From NCBI GenBank assembly GCA_016935315.1, contig JAFGRD010000064.1, positions 1 through 48,434 of the forward strand: DNA of 48,434 nt. The letters are read 5' to 3'. Position 1 is the stretch's first letter, and every line of letters starts with the position of its first letter. Below, piece after piece: positions 6,777-15,930 of this stretch. The notes below the pieces were generated by a model. The model was not told the DNA's origin and did no database searches. It saw only the letters and a list, made by a program, of their open reading frames with translations. The translations under genes and the position numbers were made by a program. Source of the DNA: Pirellulales bacterium. GTDB taxonomy: Bacteria; Planctomycetota; Planctomycetia; Pirellulales; Thermoguttaceae.

Positions 6777-9635
6777 ATGTTGTTCCTGACTCGGCTTCCG
6801 TCGAGCCGTCGGGCCGGCAGAAGCTCCACTATCCGATACGGCGTCTTCTCTCGCTTCGCGACCCCGAACCGCCGGCGGCCCATGCCGTTGGCGTTCGAGC
6901 CGCTCGAAGATCGGATGTTTCTCTCTGCGGCGCCGGTCGGCACCTTCTACGGCGACGGACAAGTTCAAACGGCCCTGCTTGACTTCACTTTTGACGACAC
7001 GCCCGTGCTGGAAGAGACCGAACACGGCGTGCTGATCAGCCTCGACGGCGAGGAAACCTGGCTGGCCGAGGGCGATCCGGTTGTCCCGGTCCGGGAGTCG
7101 ACCATCCTGTTGCCGCAGGGAATGAGGATCACGTCGGTCGAGACGACGTACGGAGACTCGGGCACCGTGGTCGGCAGCGGCGTGCAGCGGCTCGCGTCGC
7201 CGGTCGCCTTGCCGTTGGGCGGGAGCCTCGATCCGGACGATGCCTGGAGCACGGTCGTTTCCACGAGCTTCCCCGCACAGGCCTCCGTCACCTATTCGAA
7301 CCACACGCTTAGTGGCTACAACCTGGGCACGCTGCGCGTGTTCCCGGTTCAATACGACTCCACGGCCGACACGCTGACGTATCACTCGTCGATCTCGGTC
7401 ACGGTGACCACGACTCGAGTCGACGGCGACGAGATGATGGCGGTTCGCGACTCGGCGGCCGATTGGCAGCGGGTGGCCCAAGCGGTCGACAACCCCGAGG
7501 CGCTGGACTCGTACACGCTCGGCGTGCCCGACGACGTGGCGGCCCCCGACCTCGGCCCGCAGCTCGGGGCGGCCTCCAACGTGGAATACGTGATCATTAC
7601 CAGCAACAGTCTGGTCAATAGCTTCCAGCCGCTGGTCAACCAGAAGATCGCCCGCGGGCTGTCGGCGGGGATCATGACGACCGAGAGCATTTACGCGGGC
7701 TACAGCGGGGTCGAGACGGGCGACAACGCCGACAAGATCCGCCATTTTCTGATGGCCGCGTACACCAGCTTGGGGACGCGGTGGGTGTTGCTCGGCGGTG
7801 ACGTCGACGTGGTGCCGCAGCGGGGCGTTTATGCCAGCCAGGGATCGACGATCGACTACAGCCTGGCGACCGACATGTACTACGCGTGTCTGGACGGCCC
7901 GTGGAACGGCGACGGGGACGGGGTTTGGGGCGAGCAGAACGACGGCTACGGCGGCGGGGACATCGATTTGACGGCCGAGGTCTATATTGGCCGGGCGCCG
8001 GTCAGCAACTCGACCGAAGCCGCCAACTTCGTGGCCAAGACGATCCGCTACGAAACCACAGCGCACGCCAACCCCACTACGGCCGTCTGGCTGGGCGAGC
8101 AGCTCGACTCGAACACGTGGGGTAGCTACTCGGCAATTCCCATCCGCGACCAGGTGATGCCCGACGACTGGAACCTCATCGAGCGCTACGACTCGGCCGG
8201 CGGATGGAGCGGCAGCGATCTGCTCGGCGATCTGAACGCCAGCCCCCATCTGGTCAACCACCTGGGCCATGCCAATTCGACCTACAACGCCCGGTTGTAT
8301 AACTCCCAGGTCGCCGGTCTGTCGAACACGGATCCCTACTTCATGTATTCGCAAGGGTGCTACTCGGGTTCCTTCGACAGCCACGATCTGGCCATCGCGG
8401 AAAAGCACGTGGTCGACGATCATGGGGCTTTGGGCGTGGTGATGAACTCCCGCTACGGCTGGTACATGCCCGGCAGCACGCCCAGCGCCAGCCACCACTA
8501 CGCCATGCAGTTTTGGGACGCCGTGTTCAACGAGGACATGCTCCACCTGGGCCAGGCCAACCAGGATTCGAAAGACGACAACATGTATCGCGTCGGCGCG
8601 ACGGGCGTATATCGCTGGATCCACTTCGAGACGAATCTCTTCGGCGATCCTGAAACCCCGCTGCAAATCGGCCAGCTCCCGCCGGGTCCTCCCGCCGCAG
8701 ACGGTCAAACACCGGGGCTCTACAACCCGCACGCGTCGGATTTCCTGCTGCGGGATTCCAACGACGGCGGCACGGCCCAACACGACTTCATCTACGGTGC
8801 GGCCGGGGCGGGCTGGACGCCGCTTGCCGGCGATTTTGACGGCGACGGCATCGATACCATCGGCCTCTACGATCCCGCCACGTCGCGGTTTATGTTGCGC
8901 AACGCCAATAGCTCCGGCCTCGCGGATTGCACGTTCCTCTACGGACCGGGGGGCGCCGGCTGGCAGCCGATCGTGGGCGACTTCGACGGCGACGGGACCG
9001 ACACGATCGGTCTCTACGATCCCGCCACGTCCCGATTCTACCTGCGCAACAGCAACTCCACCGGCATCGCCGAGTTGAAGTTCGTCTACGGCCCCGCCGG
9101 CTTGGGCTGGCAGCCGATCGTAGGCGACTTCGACGGCGACGGGACCGACACGATCGGCCTCTACAATCCGGCCACCTCCTGGCTCTTCCTGCGCAACAGC
9201 AACACCACCGGGGTCGCCGACCTGAAGTACGTCTACGGTCCGCCGGGCGCCGGTTGGCAACCGATCGTGGGCGACTTCAACGACGACGGCACGGAGACCT
9301 GCGGGCTCTACGATCCGGCCGCTTCCCAGTTCTTCCTGCGCAACAGCAACACGACAGGCGTTGCCGAGGTCAAGTTCTATTACGGTCTGGGAAACGCCGG
9401 CTGGGAGCCAATCATCGGCAAGTGGATCGCTGCCGAAGGCTCGCCGGCCGAGGTGACTCCGAGCGACGCAGGTCTGCTGGGTGGGGGTCGGCCACGAGCC
9501 GAGTGGGACGCGGCTCTGGTCGAATACGACCTGGTGGACCCCAGCGGCTTCGGCGTTCGGACGCCGCACCATGGATTGCGACGAGGCCCAGCCACATCAG
9601 AGATCGATTTGCTGCTCACCCAGGGAATTGTGTAG
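6777..9635 (+). CDS. Gingipain-like (peptidase C25) surface protein with FG-GAP-like repeats, 952 aa
   Basis: The N-terminal FEPLEDRMFLSA (about residues 40-51) resembles the planctomycete LEPR tag found on large exported proteins. Residues about 268-640 match the C25 cysteine-peptidase family: VEYVIITSNSLV, ADKIRHFLMAAY, WVLLGGDVDVVPQRGVY, ATDMYYACLDG, AEVYIGRAPVSN, then LVNHLGHANS with the candidate catalytic His (H495 or H498), YSQGCYSGSFD with the candidate Cys528, and FGDPETPL. Residues about 646-890 are five repeats of exactly 49 aa (WQPIVGDFDGDGTDTIGLY type), resembling calcium-binding propeller repeats. The short C-terminal tail (EIDLLLTQGIV) matches no known sorting signal. It is probably secreted and proteolytic; substrate unknown. 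Alternative start: ATG 6882 (MPLAFEPLED). Confidence 0.8.
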   Translation: MLFLTRLPSSRRAGRSSTIRYGVFSRFATPNRRRPMPLAFEPLEDRMFLSAAPVGTFYGDGQVQTALLDFTFDDTPVLEETEHGVLISLDGEETWLAEGDPVVPVRESTILLPQGMRITSVETTYGDSGTVVGSGVQRLASPVALPLGGSLDPDDAWSTVVSTSFPAQASVTYSNHTLSGYNLGTLRVFPVQYDSTADTLTYHSSISVTVTTTRVDGDEMMAVRDSAADWQRVAQAVDNPEALDSYTLGVPDDVAAPDLGPQLGAASNVEYVIITSNSLVNSFQPLVNQKIARGLSAGIMTTESIYAGYSGVETGDNADKIRHFLMAAYTSLGTRWVLLGGDVDVVPQRGVYASQGSTIDYSLATDMYYACLDGPWNGDGDGVWGEQNDGYGGGDIDLTAEVYIGRAPVSNSTEAANFVAKTIRYETTAHANPTTAVWLGEQLDSNTWGSYSAIPIRDQVMPDDWNLIERYDSAGGWSGSDLLGDLNASPHLVNHLGHANSTYNARLYNSQVAGLSNTDPYFMYSQGCYSGSFDSHDLAIAEKHVVDDHGALGVVMNSRYGWYMPGSTPSASHHYAMQFWDAVFNEDMLHLGQANQDSKDDNMYRVGATGVYRWIHFETNLFGDPETPLQIGQLPPGPPAADGQTPGLYNPHASDFLLRDSNDGGTAQHDFIYGAAGAGWTPLAGDFDGDGIDTIGLYDPATSRFMLRNANSSGLADCTFLYGPGGAGWQPIVGDFDGDGTDTIGLYDPATSRFYLRNSNSTGIAELKFVYGPAGLGWQPIVGDFDGDGTDTIGLYNPATSWLFLRNSNTTGVADLKYVYGPPGAGWQPIVGDFNDDGTETCGLYDPAASQFFLRNSNTTGVAEVKFYYGLGNAGWEPIIGKWIAAEGSPAEVTPSDAGLLGGGRPRAEWDAALVEYDLVDPSGFGVRTPHHGLRRGPATSEIDLLLTQGIV
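8694..9428 (+). repeat. Five in-frame tandem repeats, period 147 bp
   Basis: The equivalent codon after the Gly-Trp of each unit lies at 8817, 8964, 9111, 9258 and 9405, an exact 147-bp (49-aa) spacing. Units 2 and 3 share long identical DNA stretches around GGCGACTTCGACGGCGACGG, which suggests recent duplication or gene conversion. The first and last units are more diverged. Confidence 0.85.
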
Positions 9636-9885
9636 AGGACCGGCTGGACGGCACACAACGCAGGAAATCTGGGGCGTGCACGGAATCTGGGGTAAATCGG
9701 AGGGGGAAGCAAAGAGATTCACAGCGGGGGTATAGCGCATTTCTCCTGTGGTCCGTGCTGTAAAACTTCTGTAAACGGATCGTCAGTCGGAGCCGTCTCC
9801 ATGGTGCGATGGCGGACCCTCAAGGTACCGGCTCGATAGCCTGCCGCATTGCGTGCATTTTCTTGGAAATCACGCGGTTTTGGGC
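9636..9885. other. Intergenic region, no gene seen
   Basis: Between the C25-type gene and the E1 promoter I see no motif-bearing frame and no terminator hairpin. A frame that continues into the E1 gene begins at 9849, but its first 130 residues look non-coding. Confidence 0.4.
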
Positions 9886-10253: not shown

Positions 10254-12242
10254 GTGCCCGAGGTGGTCCGTTTTCCCGAGAGGCTGCCCCAGGAGGCCTT
10301 CTATAGGGTTGCCTATCCGTTGATGCTCCTTTCCCGGCGGCTGGAAGAGCGGCTGCTCGAGCTGTTCCAAAAGGGATACGTCAAGGGGACGGTGACAATC
10401 AGCATTGGCAACGAAGCCACCACGGTGGGGATGTCGATTCCATTCCGTCCCAGCCACGACGTGGTGTCGCTGTTGCACCGCGACTTCGCGGCCCACCTGT
10501 TGCTGGGCGCCACGCCTTATCAGTTGGTCTGCCAGTATCTGGCCAATGCCGACAGCCCCAGCCACGCCCGCGAGGGCAACGTTCACCATGGGGACGCCGC
10601 CACCCGCCGTTTGCCAATGATCAGCCACCTGGGCAAAATGCTCGGTCTGGTGGTCGGCGGGACTTGGGCCGCCCGGCGCCACGGCGAAGACGTGTTCGGG
10701 CTGGCGGTCATCGGCGATGGCGGCAGCAGCACCGGCGAGTTCCACGAGGCGTTGAACCTCGCCTCGGTCCAGAAGGTTCCTGTGCTGTTCCTGGTCGAGA
10801 ACAACGGCTACTCCTTTTCCACGCCGACCAGCGTCCAGTACGCTTGTGCGCATCTTTCCGACCGGGCCGCCGGCTACGGTGTTTCGGGCCGGACGATCGA
10901 CGGCACGGATCCTTGGGCAGTCTACTCGGCGGTCGGGGACGCCCTGCAGGCGATGTCGGAGGATCCCGCTCCGGTGATCCTCGAGTGCATGAGCCTGCGG
11001 CTGCACGGCCACGCCGCCTACGACAAGGCCGAATACGTTTCCGACCAGCAGAAGCGGCAGGCTTGGCAGCGCGATCCGCTGCCGAGAGCGCGCCAGAAGC
11101 TTCAGGAGATCTGCGGGTTGTCGGAGGCGGACGTGACGCCGATCGAAGAGGCCGTCGAGGAGGAAGTGCGCCGGGCGATCGACGAGGCATTGCCGGTTGC
11201 CCGGCCCCAGCCGCGCGAGCACTCATGGAGCGTTTACGCAAGTTCTTCACCGCCGTCGGTCGAACCCATGAAACTGCCCCGGGTGAAGAACGGAGAGGCC
11301 GTCAACCGCGCGTTGGACTCCATCCTGGCCAATAACCCGGAAGCCGTTCTGATGGGGCTCGATGTAGGCGTGTACGGCTCGGCGTTTAAGACCTGCAAGG
11401 GGTTGATCGATCGCCACGGTCCCGAGCGGGTGATCGACCTGCCGATTTGCGAATCGGGCACAATGGGATTCGCCTTGGGGGCTTCGCAGGTCGGCACTCG
11501 ACCGATCGTCGAGTTTCAGTTCGCGGATTTCTCGACCGAAACCGCCTCGCAATTGGGGCTCAACGCCGGGACGTGGTTCTTCCGCACGGGATGCCCGGCG
11601 CCGATGCTGATCCGCTTGCCTTGCGGCGGCGGATTGACGATGGGGGCGTTCCATTCCGGAGAGTATGAAGGGCTCTGGTCGCGATTTCCCGGGCTGAAAC
11701 TGCTCTACCCCGCCACGCCCCAGGAGACGTTCGAGGCCCTCCTGGCCGGTTTCTACGACCGCAACCCCTGCCTGGTATTCGAACACAAGCTGCTCTATTG
11801 GAGCCAAAGCGGTCCGATCGATTTCGACGGCGATCTTGAAGCCGTTTGGCGCCCCCGCTGCTATGGCGAGGGATCGGATCTGACGCTGATCGCCTTTGGG
11901 GCTATGGTCCGCGAAGCCATCGCGGCCGCCGACCACAGCGGCCGGTCAGTCGAGGTTTGGAACCCGTTTGTGCTTCAGCCGTTGGATCTTGCACCGATTC
12001 TCGCCTCGGTGGAGAAAACGGGCAGGCTGATGGTGGTTCAGGAATGTGGAGCCTCGCAGGGCCTGGGCGACCAGGTGATTGCGCAGGTCGTTCGCCGGCG
12101 CCGCTTACCGTTGAGATGCCCACCGAAGCTGATCGCCGCGCCGGATGTCCCGGTTCCTTTTGCCCCGGAGCTGGAGTCCCACTGCCGTCCCAACCGTGAC
12201 AAAATACTGTCGGGCATCGCGCAAATGCTCGAGGAGAGCTGA
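10254..12242 (+). CDS. Fused alpha-beta E1 of a 2-oxoacid dehydrogenase-type, ThDP-dependent enzyme, 662 aa
   Basis: The N-terminal half (about residues 1-330) is an E1-alpha domain: GNEATTVGMSIPFRP, VSLLHRDFAAHLLLGATPYQ, and the thiamine-diphosphate motif GDGGSS..VENNGYSFS (G154-D155-G156 to N183-N184). The C-terminal half, from about Met339 (MKLPRVKNGEAVNRALDSIL), is an E1-beta/transketolase pyrimidine-binding domain with PICESGTMGFALGASQVGTR, FEHKLLYW and VVQECGASQGLGDQV. The family decarboxylates a 2-oxoacid and passes the acyl group to a lipoyl arm. I chose GTG 10254. The frame is open from 9849, but those residues look random and a promoter lies inside them; GTG leaves the normal 23 residues before MLLSRRLEERLLELF. 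The stop overlaps the next start (TGATG), so the two are translated together. No E2 catalytic domain or E3 is nearby. Donor unknown. Confidence 0.85.
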   Translation: MPEVVRFPERLPQEAFYRVAYPLMLLSRRLEERLLELFQKGYVKGTVTISIGNEATTVGMSIPFRPSHDVVSLLHRDFAAHLLLGATPYQLVCQYLANADSPSHAREGNVHHGDAATRRLPMISHLGKMLGLVVGGTWAARRHGEDVFGLAVIGDGGSSTGEFHEALNLASVQKVPVLFLVENNGYSFSTPTSVQYACAHLSDRAAGYGVSGRTIDGTDPWAVYSAVGDALQAMSEDPAPVILECMSLRLHGHAAYDKAEYVSDQQKRQAWQRDPLPRARQKLQEICGLSEADVTPIEEAVEEEVRRAIDEALPVARPQPREHSWSVYASSSPPSVEPMKLPRVKNGEAVNRALDSILANNPEAVLMGLDVGVYGSAFKTCKGLIDRHGPERVIDLPICESGTMGFALGASQVGTRPIVEFQFADFSTETASQLGLNAGTWFFRTGCPAPMLIRLPCGGGLTMGAFHSGEYEGLWSRFPGLKLLYPATPQETFEALLAGFYDRNPCLVFEHKLLYWSQSGPIDFDGDLEAVWRPRCYGEGSDLTLIAFGAMVREAIAAADHSGRSVEVWNPFVLQPLDLAPILASVEKTGRLMVVQECGASQGLGDQVIAQVVRRRRLPLRCPPKLIAAPDVPVPFAPELESHCRPNRDKILSGIAQMLEES

Positions 12243-13561
12243 TGGACGGAACCCATTTCAGAATTTCCCTGTACCTGCCCGCTCAAGGTGCCGCCGAGAC
12301 CGAAGCAACCATCATCGAATGGAATGTCTCCGACGGCGATCATTTCAAGAAGGGGGACATTCTGGCACAAGTGGACAGCGCGAAATCCGTGTTCGACTTC
12401 GAAGCGCCCTGCGACGGGTTGGCCATTCGCGTGTATCATCTGGAAGGTGAAACCGTTTCGCTGACCGAGCCGGTCATGGAAATCGAGACGTCCGATCCGA
12501 GCATGAAAGACTGGATTCCCCCGGCCGCCGGCAGCCACGAACCCGTTCTGCGAACGGACCTGGCGGCCACGGCCCAATCCTCCAACGGCGACCGCCAACA
12601 GATCGTCCTGCTGGGCGTCGGAGGCTACCTGCCCGAACGCGTCGTCACCAACGCCGAAATGGTCAAGAGCTTCCCGGAAATCTCGGAGCAGTACGTCTTC
12701 CAGGTGACGGGCATTCGCGAGCGGCGCTGGGCGGGCGACAGCGAGCGGCCTTCCGACATGGCCTTCAAGGCGTCGTTGGAGGCGATCCGCAAGTCGAGCA
12801 TCGCCACCAAAGACATCGACGCGATCATCCTCTCGACCACCACCCCCGACGTGGCCATGCCCTCAACCGCCTGTATCCTCCAGGATCGACTCAGCCTGCA
12901 CGGCGTGCCGGCGTTCGATCTCAACGCGGCCTGCTCGGGCTGGCTGTACGCCGTCTCGATGGCCCAGGGGATGATTCTCTCCGGTATGGCTCGAAACGTG
13001 CTGACCGTGGGGGTCGACATGCAATCGCGGCTGTTGGACAAGGCCGATCGAAGCGCATACTTCATCTTCGGCGACGGCGCCGGCGCCGCAATTATTTCGG
13101 CCGGCACCTCGGGACACCGCATCCACCGGGCGATCCTCGGGGCCGATACGCGGGGAATCCACATGGCCCGGCGCGCCGAGCCCGGATACTGCATTACCAA
13201 CGGCAAGGGCGACGTCGATCCCTGGATTCGCCTCGACGGCCCCGCCCTGTTCCGCTTCGCCACCGACAGCTTCACCGCGGTGATTCGCCAGGCGATCGAC
13301 AAGACGGGCTGGAAGCCGAACGAGATGCGCTGGGTCGTTCCCCACCAGGCCAACGGGCGAATCCTCAAAGCGGCCGCCAAGCGAAGCGGCGTGGCCTTCG
13401 ACCGTTTCTATCTGAATGTTGACCACGTCGGCAATACGTCCAGCGCCAGCATCCCCCTGGCGCTGTGCGAGCTCGAAGAGAGCCTCCAGGCCAGCGACCG
13501 GCTGATCCTCTGCTCGGTCGGGGCCGGCATGACCACCGCCGCCATTTCGCTGGAGTGGTGA
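12242..13561 (+). CDS. Lipoyl domain fused to beta-ketoacyl-ACP synthase III (FabH-like), 439 aa
   Basis: Residues about 8-85 form a lipoyl/biotinyl carrier domain (IIEWNVSDGDHFKKGD, then QVDSAKSVFDFEAPCDG) with Lys48 at the lipoylation position. A linker of about 35 residues (PAAGSHEPVLRTDLAATAQS) leads to a full KAS III domain, about 120-439: VLLGVGGYLPERVVTN, FQVTGIRERRWAG, FDLNAACSGWLYAVS with Cys231, WVVPHQANGRILKAAA with His368, and VGNTSSASIPLAL with Asn398, so the Cys-His-Asn triad is complete. KAS III starts fatty-acid or polyketide synthesis by condensing an acyl thioester with malonyl-ACP. The fusion suggests that the acyl group made by the upstream E1 is carried on Lys48-lipoate and delivered in cis to Cys231. 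Start codon ATG 12242 overlaps the E1 stop by one base. Confidence 0.88.
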   Translation: MDGTHFRISLYLPAQGAAETEATIIEWNVSDGDHFKKGDILAQVDSAKSVFDFEAPCDGLAIRVYHLEGETVSLTEPVMEIETSDPSMKDWIPPAAGSHEPVLRTDLAATAQSSNGDRQQIVLLGVGGYLPERVVTNAEMVKSFPEISEQYVFQVTGIRERRWAGDSERPSDMAFKASLEAIRKSSIATKDIDAIILSTTTPDVAMPSTACILQDRLSLHGVPAFDLNAACSGWLYAVSMAQGMILSGMARNVLTVGVDMQSRLLDKADRSAYFIFGDGAGAAIISAGTSGHRIHRAILGADTRGIHMARRAEPGYCITNGKGDVDPWIRLDGPALFRFATDSFTAVIRQAIDKTGWKPNEMRWVVPHQANGRILKAAAKRSGVAFDRFYLNVDHVGNTSSASIPLALCELEESLQASDRLILCSVGAGMTTAAISLEW

Positions 13562-13606: not shown

Positions 13607-14446
13607 CTACTCGTCCTTGCCCGCGTTGCTCGCCATATCGGCCTCGTCCCAGTCTTCGTCGAGCAGCTCACCGTTCTCGTCTTCCCTGGCCCGCTCCTTG
13701 CCCTTCTCGGTCGAAAGCACCTGACGCAACAGGGCGGAGAGATCGTCGTACGAATGATCGCTCGGGGGGCCCGGGGCGTATTGGAGCACGGACCGCTGAA
13801 TCCGCTCGGGCAACGCCAAAAGCGTAGACGAAACGGTGCCGTAGTCGCCGCCCGTAAGCACCACGCCGCGACGGCCGGCCACGTCCGGTTTCCGCGAAAA
13901 GGCCCGGGCGGCAACCGCCAGAAACGTGACGGCCGAGTCCAGCGTATGCAGCGTGAGCATGCGGCGGACAAACTCCTGACGCTGATCGTGATGGTCGTTC
14001 AGATTGCCGTTGGTCAGCAGGTGCAGTCCGGGCGCAAGCTCCACCACTTCGATCCGGTTGCCGCCGTAGACTACCGCTGCGTAGTCCGAGTCGGCACAAA
14101 GGTAGTTGGCGCCGGCGTAGGAACCGGTCGCCAACTCGGCGGCCGCGTACTCGGCGGCTTCCTTGGCCGTTCGCAGATTCAGCAGCTCTCGGCAAAGCAA
14201 CCCGCGCGAGCGTGGATCGGCTGGCAGCGACGTCTTGCGACGGTTGGTCACCGCAGCGACCAGGCCAAACTGATTCACTCCCAGCCAGGTCCCGCCGGCC
14301 CGGCGGTCGATCCCGCACACCGCCCGGGGTATACCCGACTGGATCTTCGGCGGTTGCGACGGTCGATCGAAGCGTTCTTCACGATTCGCGGCGAGCAAGA
14401 CCGGGGCATTTTTGGCGGTCTTGTAGAGGATGGCCATCAAGCACAT
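13607..14446 (-). CDS. NRDE / TANGO2-family protein, 279 aa
   Basis: Begins MCLMAILYKTAKNAP with Cys2, then LLAANREERFDRPSQPP, the N-R-(D/E)-E signature of the family, followed by GGTWLGVNQFGLVAAVTNRR, GANYLCADSDYAAVVYGG and HLLTNGNLND. NRDE proteins are thought to be N-terminal-nucleophile-type hydrolases or haem/lipid-handling proteins; the function is not settled. I place the start at 14446, not four codons upstream: GGAG lies just ahead (ttggagcagcttatgtgc) and Cys2 then occupies the conserved place. The C-terminal tail is strongly acidic. It lies between, and opposite to, the two KAS III genes. Its 3' end converges on the lipoyl-KAS III gene. Confidence 0.85.
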   Translation of the reverse strand: MCLMAILYKTAKNAPVLLAANREERFDRPSQPPKIQSGIPRAVCGIDRRAGGTWLGVNQFGLVAAVTNRRKTSLPADPRSRGLLCRELLNLRTAKEAAEYAAAELATGSYAGANYLCADSDYAAVVYGGNRIEVVELAPGLHLLTNGNLNDHHDQRQEFVRRMLTLHTLDSAVTFLAVAARAFSRKPDVAGRRGVVLTGGDYGTVSSTLLALPERIQRSVLQYAPGPPSDHSYDDLSALLRQVLSTEKGKERAREDENGELLDEDWDEADMASNAGKDE

Positions 14447-14458
14447 AAGCTGCTCCAA

Positions 14459-14829: not shown

Positions 14830-15930
14830 ATGGCGCAGATCGACGTGACAACAGACGAGGGCGCACCGCTGGCCGGCGGTCATCACCCCATCCCCCAGGA
14901 CACCGAGCCAACCGACGACGTGGAATTCCAGCCCAGACGCTCCCGTATCGGCCGGCTGATGGGTGTCCAGGTGGTGGGCATCGGCAGTCATGCCCCGGCC
15001 AATGCGGTCCGCAACGAAGACCTGGCCGCCCTGGGCTACGACGCCGACTGGATCGTGCAGCGGACCGGAATCCTCGAACGCCGCCACGCCGAGCCCGACG
15101 TGGCCACCAGCGACTTGGCCGTCGAGGCCGCCCGACGCTGTATCGAGGACGCCTCGGTAGATCCCGCCGACATTGACCTGATCCTGCTGGGAACGCTCAC
15201 CCCCGACACCCTCCTGCCGGCCACCGCCAGCATGATCCAGGACCGGCTCGGGCTGTGCGCGCCGGCGATGGACATCCAGGCCGCCTGCGCGAGTTTCATC
15301 TTCGCCATGATCACGGGCATGCAGTTCGTGGCCAGCGGCTGCAGCCGGCTGGTGCTGGTGATCGGGGCCGACTGCAACTCGCGGATCATCGATCCGGCCG
15401 ACCGCCGTACCTTCCCGCTGTTCGGCGACGCGGCCGGCGCGGTCCTGCTGGCCCCCGGCGACCCGAGCCAGGGCCTGCTCTCCTACGCCGTGGGCTCCGA
15501 CGGTTCCGGAGCCGAGTTGCTCTCGCGGCCGATGGGCGGCTCGCGGCTGCCGTTTAGCGTGGCCGGCCAGCACCAGGGGCTGCACTTCCTGCAGATGAAC
15601 GGCCGGCCCGTCTTCAAGTGGGCCATCCGCATGTTGCGGGAGAGCATCTCCGACACCCTGCGGGCGGCCAACATGACGCTGGACGACGTCGACCTGGTCA
15701 TTTTCCACCAGGCCAACATGCGGATCATCAACTCTTCGGTCAAAGACCTGGGCGTCGATCCGCACAAGGTGTTCATCAACCTGGATCGCTACGGCAACAC
15801 CTCTTCGGCCAGCATTCCCCTGGCCCTGGACGAGGCCTATCGCAGCGGCCGCATCCAGCGCGGCAGCCATGTTCTTTTCAGCGGATTCGGCGGCGGGCTG
15901 GCCTGGGGCACCGTGCTGATGAAGTGGTAG
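14830..15930 (+). CDS. Beta-ketoacyl-ACP synthase III (FabH-like), 366 aa
   Basis: A complete KAS III: VQVVGIGSHAPANAVRNEDL, WIVQRTGILERRHAEP, IQAACASFIFAM with Cys153, VIGADCNSRIIDPADRRTFP, FGDAAGAVLL, IFHQANMRIINS with His293, and YGNTSSASIPLAL with Asn323. It condenses an acyl thioester with malonyl-ACP to start chain synthesis. About 40 extra N-terminal residues precede the usual start; ATG 14959 (MGVQVVGIGS) is a possible shorter start. It is a stand-alone relative of the KAS III domain in the lipoyl fusion but more typical of housekeeping FabH, so the genome probably uses them for different starters. A hairpin with a T-run at 16044-16068 may end its transcript. Confidence 0.92.
   Translation: MAQIDVTTDEGAPLAGGHHPIPQDTEPTDDVEFQPRRSRIGRLMGVQVVGIGSHAPANAVRNEDLAALGYDADWIVQRTGILERRHAEPDVATSDLAVEAARRCIEDASVDPADIDLILLGTLTPDTLLPATASMIQDRLGLCAPAMDIQAACASFIFAMITGMQFVASGCSRLVLVIGADCNSRIIDPADRRTFPLFGDAAGAVLLAPGDPSQGLLSYAVGSDGSGAELLSRPMGGSRLPFSVAGQHQGLHFLQMNGRPVFKWAIRMLRESISDTLRAANMTLDDVDLVIFHQANMRIINSSVKDLGVDPHKVFINLDRYGNTSSASIPLALDEAYRSGRIQRGSHVLFSGFGGGLAWGTVLMKW

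Follow-up and report, generated by a model that had tools for sequence, protein, structure and literature searches.

We analysed a window of 48,434 nt from a Pirellulales bacterium (contig JAFGRD010000064.1 in full), which is part of a 7.1 Mb genome that is 95% complete. At positions 10254-13561 the window holds two overlapping genes, one for a fused E1 alpha-beta chain of the 2-oxoacid dehydrogenase type and one for a protein joining a lipoyl domain to a beta-ketoacyl-acyl carrier protein (ACP) synthase III (KAS III). The presence of this coupled architecture is real, conserved and widespread. We suggest that the pair is probably a synthase that converts a 2-oxoacid to 3-oxoacyl-ACP, with the condensing enzyme fed directly by the lipoyl arm. 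This suggestion is based on the co-occurrence of the two genes, their fusion into single chains elsewhere, the KAS III standing in the place of an E2 acyltransferase, the loss of the Trp32 known from FabH, and the lack of any E2 found in the genome. The features discussed below are as follows.

10254..12242, plus strand: fused E1 alpha-beta, a putative thiamine diphosphate (ThDP) dependent 2-oxoacid decarboxylase/dehydrogenase of 662 aa (Pfam: E1_dh, Transket_pyr and Transketolase_C)
12242..13561, plus strand: lipoyl-KAS III fusion protein of 439 aa (Pfam, AlphaFold2 model, Foldseek matches to FabH structures)
12275..12484, plus strand: lipoyl domain, residues 12-81 (PF00364, E 1.7e-10)
12383..12385, plus strand: Lys48 codon, predicted lipoylation site in the context SAKSV (K in 23/23 aligned rows and 80/80 single chains)
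12488..12595, plus strand: variable linker, residues 83-118 (conservation, model confidence, composition)
12596..13558, plus strand: KAS III domain, residues 119-439 (Pfam, Foldseek, alignment with solved FabH)
12692..12694, plus strand: Tyr151 codon, at the position of FabH Trp32, which stacks on the adenine of coenzyme A (CoA) (Tyr in 21/21 two-gene rows)
12932..12934, plus strand: catalytic Cys231 codon (codon checked; kept in aligned rows)
13343..13345, plus strand: catalytic His368 codon (codon checked; kept in aligned rows)
13433..13435, plus strand: catalytic Asn398 codon (codon checked; kept in aligned rows)

The gene pair and its relatives

An earlier note on this DNA had described a fused E1 gene overlapping a lipoyl-KAS III gene by one base, with Lys48 and a Cys231-His368-Asn398 triad in the second protein. 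The open reading frames along with the Pfam and NCBIfam matches bear out this arrangement. The codons of the four residues were checked, and the residues are invariant in all 23 proteins of an alignment comprising the window protein, 20 two-gene relatives and two single chains. The stop codon of E1 (12240-12242) shares its last base with the ATG of the partner (12242-12244), whereas at the other end the E1 homology starts at the GTG at 10254 and the open frame extends 5' to a TTG at 9849. The closest solved structures of the E1 protein are 2-oxoacid dehydrogenase E1 chains, and it has the GDG motif at 154 as well as His253, Glu400 and His467, all with their codons checked.

In the 439-aa protein Pfam detected Biotin_lipoyl (residues 12-81), ACP_syn_III and ACP_syn_III_C, and its score exceeded the NCBIfam cut-offs for both beta-ketoacyl-ACP synthase 3 (315.9 vs 249 bits) and fabH (297.2 vs 292.1 bits). 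The AlphaFold2 model has a mean predicted local distance difference test score (pLDDT) of 83.4 and an all-beta N-terminal domain, with low confidence at linker residues 95-117 (pLDDT below 50) and in the loop 311-322. Its top matches among solved structures, as found by Foldseek, were FabH structures.

For the family we compared 37 genomes, the own one among them. Of these, 22 have orthologues of both E1 and lipoyl-KAS, 14 have neither, and one (G004) has only an E1, which runs into a contig end. The co-occurrence gives a Fisher p of 2.5e-9 with G004 counted as discordant and without correction for relatedness. Full-length relatives of 57-79% identity were found in 19 other family genomes, and two further genomes have one more divergent relative (50%) and one contig-end fragment. 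Some single loci deserve mention: in G010 the lipoyl-KAS is a 59-residue stretch at a contig end only, in G017 the E1 is frameshifted, the pair of G018 is more divergent (43 and 53% identity), and G005, one of the 14 genomes without the pair, has a distant E1 (30%). Gene spacing was measured for 19 loci; at 15 of them it ranges from -4 to +8 bp, and at the other 4 the genes are 104-164 bp apart. The earlier note had held that a pairing found in no other genome would speak against its proposal; the pairing occurs in the 22 family genomes and, as single-chain fusions, elsewhere. An apparent E1-KAS fusion frame in the family locus L044 was discarded as a frameshift artefact, as E1 is there split over two frames.

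Over the 21 two-gene rows (the 59-residue fragment L057 was left out of all KAS counts) the mean frequency of the top residue is 0.77 for the lipoyl domain, 0.75 for the KAS domain and 0.52 for the linker, which is rich in Ala (23%) and Pro (16%). The lipoyl lysine stands in the context A/D/T-K-A/S. As PF00364 spans biotinyl and lipoyl domains alike, the N-terminal domain might be taken for a biotin carrier and the protein for a carboxylating synthase. We find this scarcely credible, since every row has A, S or G right after the lysine and none has M as in biotin domains, the gene pairs with an E1, and the NCBIfam matches include E2 lipoyl models.

The earlier note had also seen neither an E2 nor an E3 near the pair. 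For E2 the same holds genome-wide: a search for the E2 catalytic domain (PF00198) gave 0 matches in the own genome at its 95% completeness. The sole E3 (dihydrolipoamide dehydrogenase) over the cut-off is located on another contig (G000:C19:96274-97653, 459.7 bits). Counting the own genome, no E2 was found in 7 of the 22 pair-bearing genomes. The own genome also has LipA with an adjoining LplA/LipB-family gene, as well as GcvH, the glycine-cleavage H protein. LipA tracks the pair (21/23 vs 7/14 genomes, p 0.014), also among the E2-less genomes (6/7 with the pair vs 2/8 without, p 0.041). In these LipA counts G015 and G018 were scored as present although their matches fall short of the curated cut-off. 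This association is only suggestive, because shared ancestry and the glycine-cleavage H protein confound it.

Single-chain forms and the place of the E2 domain

In two genomes from other families of the order (L055 and L056) E1alpha, E1beta, lipoyl domain and KAS III form one chain. We aligned five single chains and scanned named genomes with them. A relative was encoded in 538 of 595 candidate stretches, hence at least 538 in all, and we took the best 80 loci. Of these, 78 encode E1 and KAS without a break in the same frame, and the other two (L119 and L125) have one internal stop. According to the record titles, 30 of the best 80 loci belong to Planctomycetota, 24 to Spirochaetota, 17 to Verrucomicrobiota, 2 to Lentisphaerota and 2 to Betaproteobacteria, with one each from Kiritimatiellia, Sumerlaeota, Deltaproteobacteria, Rheinheimera and Xenococcus. 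As all 80 titles denote metagenome-assembled genomes, the single odd placements may be binning errors.

For residue counts we used 80 single-chain rows, being the 78 unbroken scan loci along with L055 and L056. The lipoyl Lys, KAS Cys and KAS His are present in all 80; the KAS Asn is present in 79, the last row having a gap there. The counterparts of His253, Glu400 and His467 of the window E1, which are an E1alpha loop His and the Glu and His of E1beta, were likewise matched in 80/80. All six Pfam domains from E1 through KAS III were detected in 31 of 31 single chains scanned. Pfam listed neither PF00198 nor PP-binding for these 31 chains, nor for the 23 lipoyl-KAS rows. A search of plasmids revealed no lipoyl-KAS architecture among the listed matches; 3 of 387 records, not all of them inspected, cover at least 80% of the lipoyl-KAS query, and none covers 80% of the single-chain query.

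What stands in the place of the KAS III is seen in a planctomycete family (f67) with seven loci encoding a closely related E1alpha-E1beta-lipoyl chain. In five of the seven an E2 active-site motif follows downstream in the same open frame; L103 has the motif in a different frame, and L069 is cut off by the end of its contig. Pfam confirmed PF00198 in 3 of 3 of these chains scanned. The seven chains are sisters of the KAS-bearing single chains in the E1 tree, with a support of 97 by the Shimodaira-Hasegawa-like approximate likelihood ratio test (SH-aLRT). The f67 chains and the coupled chains thus share the same E1alpha-E1beta-lipoyl part but differ in the C-terminal domain, E2 acyltransferase in L098-L102 and KAS III in the coupled chains. 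Because the sisters carry the E2 domain C-terminally, it seems that the acyltransferase, whose usual role is to take over the acyl group from the lipoyl arm, was exchanged for a condensing enzyme in the single chains. The five f67 chains L098-L102, about 1,070-1,090 aa long, amount to a dehydrogenase complex minus E3 in one polypeptide.

In the E1 tree the window-type E1s do not fall with the single-chain group but join further fused E1s from the phylum (96). When both KAS-coupled E1 groups were forced into one clade the log-likelihood fell by 133, and this topology was rejected by the approximately unbiased (AU) test (p-AU 6.6e-6). As the E1 parts of the two-gene and single-chain forms thus come from different lineages, the coupling probably arose twice, and for E1 an independent coupling is likely as judged from these trees. 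In the KAS tree the two-gene and single-chain groups each form one clade (100/100). It should be noted that the outgroups of the E1 tree were taken from Planctomycetota only. One E1 tree included 43 single-chain rows and the other, which gave the support of 97 for the f67 sisters, 16, and L043 (cut), L044 (frameshift) and L057 were left out. The KAS tree used 22 of the 80 single-chain rows, and its bootstrap had not settled.

The acyl donor and a possible mechanism

In FabH of the E. coli type, Trp32 and Arg151 sandwich the adenine of CoA, and the phosphopantetheine is bound by Arg36 (PMC4606726). We found the Trp32 position to be W in none of the 101 coupled KAS, in contrast to 34 of 36 other KAS III and 5 of 5 aligned solved FabH, that of E. 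coli among those with W. Here the 36 are made up of 34 controls (38 minus 4 duplicates), all with W, and two KAS III of the own genome. The position is Tyr in 21/21 two-gene rows, and D, E, G, K or S in 80/80 single-chain rows. The Arg36 position is Val in 21/21 two-gene rows. The loss of Trp32 argues against a CoA donor. Arg249, which we take to be part of the ACP-docking face, is kept in 101/101 coupled KAS. The FabH positions F87 and R151 were also tried as discriminators and dropped, as the controls were too variable.

We propose the following reaction. By analogy with its family, the fused E1 would decarboxylate a 2-oxoacid on ThDP and then reductively acylate the lipoate on Lys48 of the partner, giving S-acyl-dihydrolipoyl. 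In what would be the new step, the tethered arm would swing across to the KAS III domain on its own polypeptide, where Cys231 would take the acyl group straight from the dihydrolipoyl thioester, with neither E2 acyltransferase nor CoA. Following KAS III chemistry, Cys231, His368 and Asn398 would catalyse the condensation of the acyl group with malonyl-ACP. The resulting 3-oxoacyl-ACP would be the first intermediate in building a fatty-acid or polyketide chain, and the E3 of the genome would re-oxidise the arm. Further, we lean somewhat towards a more general reading, that this is a widespread CoA-independent chain start in which a KAS III took over the position that the E2 acyltransferase has in a 2-oxoacid dehydrogenase. 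The coupling would then have arisen at least twice, as two genes in the family of the window and as a single chain in several phyla.

A number of observations weigh against the proposed reaction. Two KAS III encoded elsewhere in the own genome, at G000:C14 (L228) and G000:C52 (L229), are more distant and have F and L at the Trp32 position, and 27 of the 34 W-bearing controls are relatives of one FabH lineage. The loss of Trp32 is not specific to a lipoyl donor, as an acyl-ACP would also fit. Most single chains (69 of 80) still have Arg36. In their E1 part the GDG motif is imperfect, with D in 73/80 and the last G in 74/80. An E2 is present in 15 of the 22 pair-bearing genomes, and six of the seven E2-less ones are only 68-93% complete; the pair does not need E2, yet it is not simply an E2 substitute. 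As for the origins, the sister relation of the two groups in the KAS tree has a support of 14/49, compatible with one or two origins, and the E1 trees were quick ones in which the two-gene branch is long. Finally, the lack of conserved pathway neighbours means that no product is indicated.

Several of these points would suit an ordinary operon of the branched-chain style, in which a distant E2 makes acyl-CoA, the KAS III is a normal FabH and the lipoyl domain a mere docking module. An E2 catalytic domain is found somewhere in 15/22 pair-bearing genomes, and the Arg residues are in part retained, Arg151 in 14/21 two-gene KAS and Arg36 in the single chains as given above. Such an operon is however improbable when set against the seven pair-bearing genomes, the own one among them, in which no E2 was found, the loss of Trp32 in 101/101 coupled KAS, the invariant lipoyl lysine in a lipoyl domain conserved as well as the KAS, and the single chains having KAS where their sister chains have an E2 domain.

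Regarding the substrate, the E1alpha of a single chain scored best with the Thermus branched-chain E1, at 141.1 bits vs 88.7 for a pyruvate E1. For the window E1alpha the values with branched-chain and pyruvate E1 structures were 108.9 and 93.6 bits, which is a small margin. The window E1 has the motifs HRD and EGNVHHGD in contrast to YRD and RQM in the single chains, all of which we assume to lie near the expected substrate site. There is perhaps a little less than an even chance that the acyl donor is a branched-chain 2-oxoacid; it may otherwise be pyruvate, 2-oxobutyrate or something else. The earlier note had proposed in-cis feeding by the lipoyl arm to start a possibly branched chain. Of this, in-cis feeding without an E2 finds good support in the genomic evidence, while a branched substrate is favoured by weak sequence evidence only.

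The same mechanism might also run CoA-free with pyruvate, giving acetoacetyl-ACP and hence a straight-chain start. This variant overlaps with the direct lipoyl feeding we prefer, and we hold it for rather unlikely as the specific case. It would fit with the own genome, in which no E2 was found and hence no pyruvate dehydrogenase (PDH) complex is detectable, and with window motifs unlike those of the single chains. Against it stand the E1alpha scores given above and the ordinary FabH nearby and in the relatives.

Known systems, neighbouring genes and implications

Direct lipoyl feeding would place the pair outside the standard 2-oxoacid dehydrogenase complexes, because the E2 acyltransferase is absent, and it would not be a standard FabH either, because the CoA-adenine residue is lost. 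With PDH and the branched-chain 2-oxoacid dehydrogenase (BCKDH) it shares the E1 domains and catalytic residues, the lipoyl carrier domain and an E3 available in the genome, but it has KAS III instead of the E2 acyltransferase, and the predicted product is 3-oxoacyl-ACP and not acyl-CoA. With KAS III/FabH it shares the fold, the Cys-His-Asn triad and R249, but here the KAS is joined to a lipoyl domain, in many genomes also to E1, and the CoA-adenine Trp is lost. In the open-licence literature of PubMed Central (PMC) we found no description of an E1-lipoyl-KAS III architecture among titles and abstract openings.

The earlier note had drawn a parallel to quinocarcin biosynthesis. According to PMC6335953, QncN/QncL/QncM (quinocarcin) and SclQ1-4 (scleric acid) have lipoyl, acyltransferase and ACP parts, and their E1-like part passes an acyl group via a lipoyl domain toward a chain-assembly line. 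The parallel thus stands as a relation in logic. The systems are not the same, as those described there keep an acyltransferase and an ACP (PMC6335953), whereas here there is a condensing enzyme instead and no ACP is fused.

In a closer form of this parallel, E1 would take a two-carbon unit from a ketose phosphate and KAS III would condense or pass on the glycolyl group. QncN/QncL-type enzymes do have E1-like and lipoyl parts in common with the pair, and they load an ACP (PMC6335953). On two Streptomyces plasmids, too, a fused E1 stands beside a protein of related make-up. We nevertheless judge such a transfer very unlikely here. The acyltransferase and ACP of those systems are not listed among the Pfam domains, and the solved structures closest to E1 are 2-oxoacid dehydrogenases, whose beta chains reach 185 bits, with transketolases at 38 bits or less. 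Further, no natural-product gene was seen among the scanned neighbours of the pair (3 + 6; most neighbours unscanned). In the two plasmids, L263 (from 8014) and L264 (from 8013), a fused E1 gene is followed by a polyketide synthase/non-ribosomal peptide synthetase protein starting with lipoyl, E2 catalytic, ACP and ketosynthase (KS) domains. By its domain order this is a dehydrogenase-type loading module, of the same logic but with an acyltransferase.

If decarboxylation coupled to condensation has an experimental precedent, it is most likely BkdABC of Photorhabdus (isopropylstilbene, iso-fatty acids), for which a 5-methyl-3-oxohexanoyl thioester is reported (PMC4578411, PMC4901931, PMC3838401). 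As there described, a branched-chain 2-oxoacid dehydrogenase system does both decarboxylation and condensation. It differs in that BkdB reportedly holds an NgrA-activated acyl-carrier domain (PMC4578411), of which there is none here, the comparison being one by description only.

The neighbourhood was considered as a clue to function and rejected. No gene is conserved beside the pair across the family, the commonest neighbours (in L039, a HlyD-like and a squalene-cyclase-like protein) occurring in 3-4 loci, and no pathway genes are conserved beside the single chains. The window holds a separate KAS III at 14830-15930, which is of the ordinary FabH type and 33% identical to the fused KAS. Its relatives in other genomes (52-78% identity) are on contigs other than that of the pair, and we rejected it as a third component. 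Between the pair and this FabH gene lies a TANGO2-family protein gene (13607-14458, minus strand). Just upstream of E1, 6777-9635 encodes a large protein in which FG-GAP type repeats occur together with a peptidase domain of family C25 (gingipain-type), and antisense to this gene there is an open frame of 986 aa. Beside seven of the single-chain genes, Planctomycetota by title (L138, L157, L163, L173, L183, L185 and L186), an open frame follows directly or with slight overlap; the representative frame, that of L173 (208 aa), matched the shell-protein domain of bacterial microcompartments (BMC) twice. The enzyme may be encapsulated there, or the frame may be a chance neighbour.

In the textbook route to branched and unusual starters a dehydrogenase complex converts the 2-oxoacid to acyl-CoA, which FabH then converts to 3-oxoacyl-ACP. 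In the pair described here the dehydrogenase and FabH steps appear to be merged, the acyl group going directly from the lipoyl arm to the condensing enzyme. If this is true, lipoate would carry acyl groups into C-C bond formation, and some bacteria would prime their chains with neither CoA nor E2. The single-chain form would then be a one-polypeptide module of about 1,100 residues usable for starter-unit engineering, and lipid biosynthesis in the poorly cultured Planctomycetota, Spirochaetota and Verrucomicrobiota would become directly testable.

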